From the NCBI GenBank assembly GCA_919902505.1, contig CAKKRE010000024.1:1-34656 (forward strand): 34,656 nt of DNA, in the 5' to 3' direction. The notes below the pieces were generated by a model. The model worked only from the letters and a program-made list of their open reading frames with translations. It was not told where the DNA came from and ran no database searches. Of this stretch, positions 28,834-29,353 are shown one piece after another. Every line of letters begins with the position of its first letter. Position 1 is the stretch's first letter. Source of the DNA: Nitrospiraceae bacterium (GTDB lineage Bacteria; Nitrospirota; Nitrospiria; Nitrospirales; Nitrospiraceae). The translations under genes were made by a program, and so were the position numbers.

Positions 28834-28923
<90 letters not shown>

Positions 28924-28986
28924 TCGAACAGAGCCCTGCAAGGTTGAGAAGGCGTGTGAGTTGGAATTGCCATTGCGAACGGACGC

Positions 28987-29109
28987 GGTGGGATTCGAAC
29001 GAGGGGGATCGCGGGGGAGATACTCCCCTGCGTGGGGAGACACGAGGGGGCGGGCCCCCTCAGTGGGAGCGCGTGAGCGCGACTTCGAATGCCCACCCTC
29101 TCCGCCATC
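28987..29109 (+). other. Decayed tRNA-Ser-like element with multiple hairpins
   Basis: Positions 29084-29109 repeat the last 25 bases of tRNA-Ser (TTCGAAT, one extra G, then CCCACCCTCTCCGCCATC). A 92-base span, 29016-29107, mimics a tRNA: GGAGA pairs with TCTCC as part of an acceptor stem and CCA ends it. A D-arm-like hairpin CTCCCC/GGGGAG (29023-29039) and a 7-bp stem GAGGGGG/CCCCCTC (29044-29061) follow. A GTGGG at 29063 could pair with CCCAC at 29092, but a GCGC/GCGC hairpin interrupts the T-loop. At 28987-29000 there is also an inverted T-arm copy, GGTGGGATTCGAAC. The anticodon stem has the wrong loop size, so a functional tRNA is unlikely. Confidence 0.5.
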
Positions 29110-29122
29110 AACGTTTGCTCGA

Positions 29123-29149
29123 CCATCGCCTCGCGAATCGAGGCGATGG
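29123..29149. other. Perfect 11-bp stem-loop upstream of the SRP RNA gene
   Basis: CCATCGCCTCG and CGAGGCGATGG pair perfectly around the loop CGAAT. No T-run follows on either strand. It may end the tRNA-Ser transcript or lie in the control region of ffs. Confidence 0.5.
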
Positions 29150-29170
29150 GATAGATATCGTAACTGTAAC

Positions 29171-29271
29171 GGGGCCGGGCCCTGTGCAACAGAACCCTGT
29201 GAACCCCGCCAGGTCCGGAAGGAAGCAACGGTAAGCGGTTCGTTCTGTGTGCCGCAGGATCACCTGGCCCC
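29171..29271 (+). ncRNA. ffs: Signal recognition particle RNA (4.5S type)
   Basis: The RNA core of SRP, which with Ffh directs membrane proteins to the translocon. The conserved apical domain is visible as CAGGTCCGGAAGGAAGCAAC (from 29209), the Ffh-binding internal loops with the GGAA tetraloop. The ends GGGGCC (29171) and GGCCCC (29266) pair, with partial pairing between. About 100 bases, the short bacterial form without an Alu domain. It lies 82 bases ahead of dnaX, a common arrangement. Confidence 0.9.
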
Positions 29272-29353
29272 ACTTCTTCGATGACATCTCGCCCGGCGCG
29301 TCAGGCGCCGCCGGCACCGGCGAGCACCACCGCCCCGACAGGGTCGACGCAAC

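Follow-up and report, generated by a model that had tools for sequence, protein, structure and literature searches.

The Interval Between tRNA-Ser and the SRP RNA Gene

The window analyzed here is a 34,656-nucleotide stretch of a Nitrospiraceae genome (GenBank assembly GCA_919902505.1, contig CAKKRE010000024.1) in which a tRNA-Ser(GGA) gene is followed by the SRP RNA gene. ARAGORN and Rfam scans found no match between these two genes. The whole of the element described below is a 184-bp unit, 28924-29107, that directly follows the tRNA and has these parts:

28834..28923 (+): tRNA-Ser(GGA), intact and with CCA encoded, the host (target) gene (ARAGORN; Rfam RF00005, 52.9 bits)
28924..28986 (+): variable spacer from tRNA to head, 3 to about 180 bp among relatives
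28987..29000 (+): head, GGTGGGATTCGAAC, exact reverse complement of the T-loop and T-stem 3' strand of tRNA-Ser
29001..29083 (+): body, a conserved structured core of three hairpins with 3' end GCGAC (alignments, models A1/R1 and A2/R2)
29010..29032 (+): hairpin 1 (CGCGGGGGAG/CTCCCCTGCG), with both-side changes in 5/9 pairs in the sister class
29041..29065 (+): hairpin 2 (CACGAGGGGGC/GCCCCCTCAGTG), the part of the element with the highest conservation
29069..29080 (+): hairpin 3 (GCGC-GTGA-GCGC), of variable length among relatives
29084..29107 (+): tail, TTCGAAT-G-CCCACCCTCTCCGCCA, an imperfect direct repeat of the tRNA-Ser 3' end
29091 (+): extra base in the tail, G here and A, C or T among relatives, 17 nt before the tail end (Ser)
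29173-29272: SRP RNA gene (ARAGORN/Rfam scans)

The initial annotation had described a recurrence of the tRNA-Ser 3' end with one inserted base and an inverted copy of the T-arm ahead of it, and both observations hold. The repeat comprises 26 bases at 29084-29109 (TTCGAAT-G-CCCACCCTCTCCGCCATC; in full, TTCGAATGCCCACCCTCTCCGCCATC), its added base is the G at 29091, and its CCA ends at 29107, an offset of 184 bp from the end of the tRNA's CCA at 28923; the inverted copy is the head. The direct repeat is beyond chance, with no match in 100 dinucleotide shuffles of the window, and the segment 28921-29172 folds far better than shuffled sequence (z -4.5). The cloverleaf-like order of stems that had been proposed for this sequence gives way to a single long head-tail helix around three hairpins, and ARAGORN and Rfam return no tRNA score, even with a permissive threshold, for the suspected pseudogene. 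Between the tail and the SRP RNA gene, at 29110-29160, lies a hairpin (CAGAGCTAGCTCGACCGCGAGCC...GGCGAGCGGAGAA) that recurs 3' of many Nitrospira tRNA genes and is perhaps a terminator or another repeat.

A Family of Elements in Nitrospirota

The unit is no oddity of this one site; it recurs elsewhere and behind other tRNAs. When 60 relatives were searched with the tRNA-ffs stretch, the comparison that the initial annotation had proposed, several genomes proved to have the unit behind tRNA-Ser(GGA), and in other relatives the unit stands behind a different tRNA-Ser elsewhere. A covariance model built from 17 Ser copies (R1) matches 69 of 295 Nitrospirota genomes and 24 of 135 genera, with many matches behind tRNA-Gly, Thr, Ala, Asp, Arg, and Leu. 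A second model (R2), made exclusively from non-Ser copies, matches 68 of the 295 genomes and recovers the window copy at E=3e-12, which shows that Ser and non-Ser copies form one family. The element is present in about one quarter of the 295 genomes at up to 11 copies per genome; the window's genome has one copy versus 11 in genome G032. Among 130 unique copies, 111 are located at most 480 nt behind a tRNA on the same strand, and these host tRNAs represent eight isotypes (Ser, Gly, Thr, Asp, Ala, Arg, Leu, and Met) and 18 anticodons.

When 84,980 species were scanned for the pattern, 50 stretches matched. They include N. defluvii and N. moscoviensis and are all labelled Nitrospirota except for two "Nitrosospira" contigs; the bin of these contigs is named CMX, and they are probably comammox Nitrospira. 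No Rfam family matches the window copy or 12 other loci, copies away from tRNAs included, and nothing similar was found in plasmid and phage collections. The open-access literature yielded no prior description, and an earlier report may exist elsewhere. These tRNA-end-mirroring elements are apparently an undescribed family of small structured non-coding elements in Nitrospira-type bacteria.

Five copies of the element are found not at a tRNA but inside an unrelated MITE-like repeat. This separate repeat is ~300 bp long, has terminal inverted repeats TAGCCCGCATTAT / AATAATGCGGGCTA, contains the element body in some of its copies (L110, L113, L125, L126, and L133), and is also present at L168 2600-2900 (-), L089 5060-5400, and L109 660-1000. 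In the window's genome, the MITE-like repeat is found ~300 bp behind tRNA-Gly(CCC) (L226), and in G007 its 5' part adjoins an integron integrase gene (L150 11443-11519).

Head and Tail Follow the Host tRNA

Every copy has the same layout of spacer (3 to about 180 bp), head, body, and tail, with a unit length of about 150-300 bp and a conserved body of about 85 nt. The tail best matches the isotype of its own tRNA in 106 of the 111 tRNA-associated copies; six exceptions were flagged, one of them nearly tied between isotypes and the other five affected by truncation, masking, or degeneration. Gly, Thr, Asp, Ala, and Arg tails are nearly always identical to the host tRNA from G52 through CCA, and nearly all of these copies carry the extra base 26 nt before the tail end. 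Most Ser copies have it between positions 60 and 61, at a distance of 17 nt from the tail end; the distance is 16, 18, or 27 nt in a few tails (placements were taken from tails that align with a single extra base). This base can be any letter, and the tail from the extra base to CCA is essentially identical to the host tRNA.

Across the extra-base point, the head matches the host tRNA T-arm in reverse complement, and in 97 of 101 units its pairing with the tRNA surpasses that with the tail. The correspondence is illustrated by two serine tRNAs of G032: behind tRNA-Ser(GCT), TTCAAATCCCGCC, the head reads GGCGGGATTTGAAC, and behind tRNA-Ser(CGA), TTCGACTCCCACC, it reads GGTGGGAGTCGAAC. The fixed terminal inverted repeats and short target duplication that characterize a MITE were not found, as the ends of the element vary with the host tRNA.

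Predicted Fold and Strand

RNAalifold applied to 20 non-Ser copies (class II) predicts that head and tail form a helix, in which a single base bulges out of the tail strand, around three hairpins. Both-side changes occur in 19 of the 37 pairs of this fold and amount to 58 cells versus 14.6 in shuffles (reached in 0/500 shuffles), a covariation signal that is lost once the pairing partners are slid. Wobble pairing is strand specific, with 19 G-U versus 3 A-C cells, or 43 versus 10 in the other count, although the G-U excess could partly reflect a G-rich strand or apply to single-stranded DNA. The tRNA-sense strand is the better folder in 67 of 72 non-redundant copies, a figure that may be inflated by the G-richness of that strand. 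The compensatory changes and the G-U bias support, and on the sequence evidence point to, a folded RNA read in the direction of the tRNA; single-stranded DNA of the tRNA-sense strand is a possible folded form. HDV-like and group I folds, inspected by eye, received no support. The initial annotation had offered a tRNA-derived structured RNA as one option; covariation supports the structure, and the derivation from tRNA applies to the ends only.

Evidence for Mobility

Empty sites were compared with filled ones (L045 versus L012, L006, and L013; L216 versus L207). In G022, the CCA of the tRNA is directly followed by AACAGAGCTAGCTCGACC, the same flank that comes after the tail of a shortened element copy in G019, and the flank of the tRNA-Gly(CCC) gene in G013 resembles the post-tail flank in G008. 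Three genomes of this genus (G023, G006, and G008) carry an intact Gly(CCC) unit, three others (G020, G003, and G005) a degenerate one, and the rest none. Units also occur in tandem: L085 has three behind tRNA-Gly(GCC), L087 has two, and L008 has a remnant. On a tree of bodies, the host-tRNA label changes 32 times, compared with a minimum of 16 and with 63 in shuffles. Copies thus cluster by host tRNA but also change host, for the most part from one Ser isoacceptor to another: in G032, the copies that follow Ser GGA, CGA, and GCT fall together with near relatives (95*), and their heads and tails match the local T-arm. Given that copies cluster by tRNA type over long times, either movement is rare or some copies are selectively kept. 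Together, the empty sites, tandem copies, decay, and isoacceptor spread indicate mobility, and insertion leaves the host tRNA intact. The footprint at a tRNA 3' end that had been considered for this locus is supported by the empty sites and the repeated 3' end. To call it a scar would be wrong, though, since the 184-bp unit recurs and is the element itself.

Several loci show additional arrangements. In L086 (4820-8430; G237), a 3.6-kb segment with three ORFs, one of them DUF5677, is located between element copies behind tRNA-Ser(CGA) and ends in CCCCTCTCCGCCA; it is possibly a gene-bearing relative of the element, or an island. In L123, L137, and L143, half tRNA-Thr copies from the anticodon loop on precede the element, like far island ends. 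In L139 (~2500-2700; G292), a tRNA-Gly(CCC) lacks its 3' part, and its 5' half is joined directly to head, body, and tail.

Candidate Enzymes and a Proposed Mechanism

Three types of enzyme were sought in element-bearing genomes, and none of them tracks the presence of the element. No reverse transcriptase, the enzyme expected with a retroelement (group II intron or retron), was found in G032, G005, G006, G011, G030, or G041, no IS110 transposase (DEDD) was found in G032, G005, G006, or G011, which are rich in copies, and most element-bearing genomes, G032 among them, gave no match for an integron integrase. G032, with the highest copy number (11), is without all three, and the element and IntI occur together in just 17 genomes. 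The window's genome encodes one full integron integrase (G000:C65:12832-13764) and two fragments (G000:C28 and G000:C62). An integron origin was considered and rejected; the integrases near a contig end in the window's genome (L149) and in G007 (L150) come without an element-like attC array.

We see about an even chance that 28924-29107 is a copy of a non-coding, non-autonomous mobile RNA element that is guided by its head to the T-arm and 3' end of a tRNA. The anatomy of the element, its targeting, and its strand bias are read from the data; the RNA step and the joining reaction are what we infer from them. The element would act as an RNA of the tRNA-sense strand, produced with the tRNA transcript, and the head would serve as a guide or splint by base pairing with the target T-arm on both sides of the insertion point, which we would place after position 51 (Gly, Thr, Asp, Ala, and Arg) or after position 60 (Ser). 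The extra base would mark the join of the element 3' end with the target, and the joining enzyme would act in trans. The insert starts with a spare tRNA 3' end and CCA, so the host tRNA stays whole and insertion is harmless. The rewriting of the head for a new tRNA is not explained by this RNA-guided model and counts against it. More tentatively, the elements might constitute a new class of mobile RNA, in which a structured RNA of ~120 nt inserts, or is inserted, into T-arms via head pairing across the junction in the target, possibly by RNA catalysis (e.g., reverse splicing), and rewrites its ends to match every new tRNA.

Alternative Explanations

Two other readings account for parts of the evidence. 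We regard as rather unlikely, and still deserving of weight, that the unit is an attC-like folded single-stranded DNA site, that is, a gene-less cassette moved by a tyrosine recombinase (IntI or XerCD) with the T-arm in the role of attI. Such a site would account for the inverted and direct core copies with one extrahelical base, the tandem arrays resemble cassettes (the L086 array even holds an ORF-bearing segment), and integron integrases are common in Nitrospirota. The extra base, however, is single and on the 3' arm, Ser tails are without GTT, the apical structure of the element is highly conserved whereas the VTS of attC is not, the head has a better pairing partner in the target than in the tail, and only the 17 genomes mentioned combine the element with IntI. 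It is unlikely, in our judgment, that the unit is instead a cis-acting RNA with a host function in tRNA maturation or regulation, whose head would switch between T-arm and tail pairing and whose apparent mobility would be duplication and loss. The RNA-type covariation and strand bias, the complementarity of the head to the tRNA, the persistence in distant families, and the clustering by tRNA type are all consistent with such a function; a cis-acting role nevertheless does not account for a tail that copies the acceptor 3' strand and CCA and sits poorly with the absence or decay of the element at the same tRNA in close relatives, with copy numbers that range from 1 (the window's genome) to 11, and with copies away from tRNAs.

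The initial annotation had also suggested a duplicated, decayed tRNA-Ser or the footprint of an element that once integrated, which here would be an inert scar left by a phage or island. The direct repeat of the tRNA 3' end would fit either origin, and islands do use the same tRNAs, as the half tRNA-Thr copies in L123, L137, and L143 illustrate. The sequence has no tRNA score, however, its fold is under selection, and its body is unrelated to tRNA and is one and the same conserved body behind eight isotypes. Decayed tRNA and island scar were both ruled out by the tRNA scans and comparative data, and we consider either of them extremely improbable.

The proposed head-guided mobile element would be of interest beyond this locus. 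Bacterial mobile DNA lands most often at tRNA genes, and the hosts here are nitrifying bacteria of ecological weight. To our knowledge, known tRNA-targeting elements bring their own integrase and have one target tRNA each. A single structured non-coding core that stands behind eight isotypes and whose ends match the local tRNA argues for a targeting rule of base pairing with the T-arm and for an as yet unnamed enzyme. If the RNA does guide or carry out the joining, it would represent a new type of programmable insertion, one that targets an essential gene without disrupting it.

Comparison with Known Systems

The closest parallels each share some features with the element. Like an integron attC site or cassette, it is palindromic, has an extra unpaired base and a structured tip, and forms tandem arrays beside a simple site. 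The attC site has two or three extrahelical bases on its 5' (R''-L'') arm and AAC...GTT boundaries (PMC2727003), whereas the extra base of the element is usually one and on the 3' arm, and the R-box AAC...GTT boundaries are missing from the Ser class, whose tails read ACTTC; the element further differs in its conserved tip, its lack of a gene, its lack of a tie to IntI, and its T-arm partner.

The element resembles tRNA-targeting tyrosine-recombinase elements in repeating the tRNA 3' end, starting at the T-arm, and in restoring the tRNA, such that a direct repeat of the tRNA 3' end is present at both ends of the element. In contrast to these elements, the unit is without integrase or genes, its size of about 150-300 bp leaving no room for an integrase gene, and it combines one body at eight isotypes with an inverted copy of the T-arm and an extra base where it is joined. 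Group I introns and IStrons likewise contain an internal sequence that pairs across a tRNA exon junction and likewise insert harmlessly, but the element has a body of about 85 nt, an intact tRNA before the insert, and a T-arm site, and no Rfam match to a group I intron catalytic core was found in the window or its relatives. A structured RNA with target-complementary sequence is also a feature of the bridge-RNA elements of IS110/IS1111 and of omega-RNA elements; the element, unlike these, has no ORF, and IS110 transposase is missing from copy-rich genomes. Finally, MITE, REP, and BIME repeats resemble the element in being short, non-coding, hairpin rich, and multi-copy, whereas the ends of the element follow each host tRNA and its covariation is of a strand-specific RNA type.
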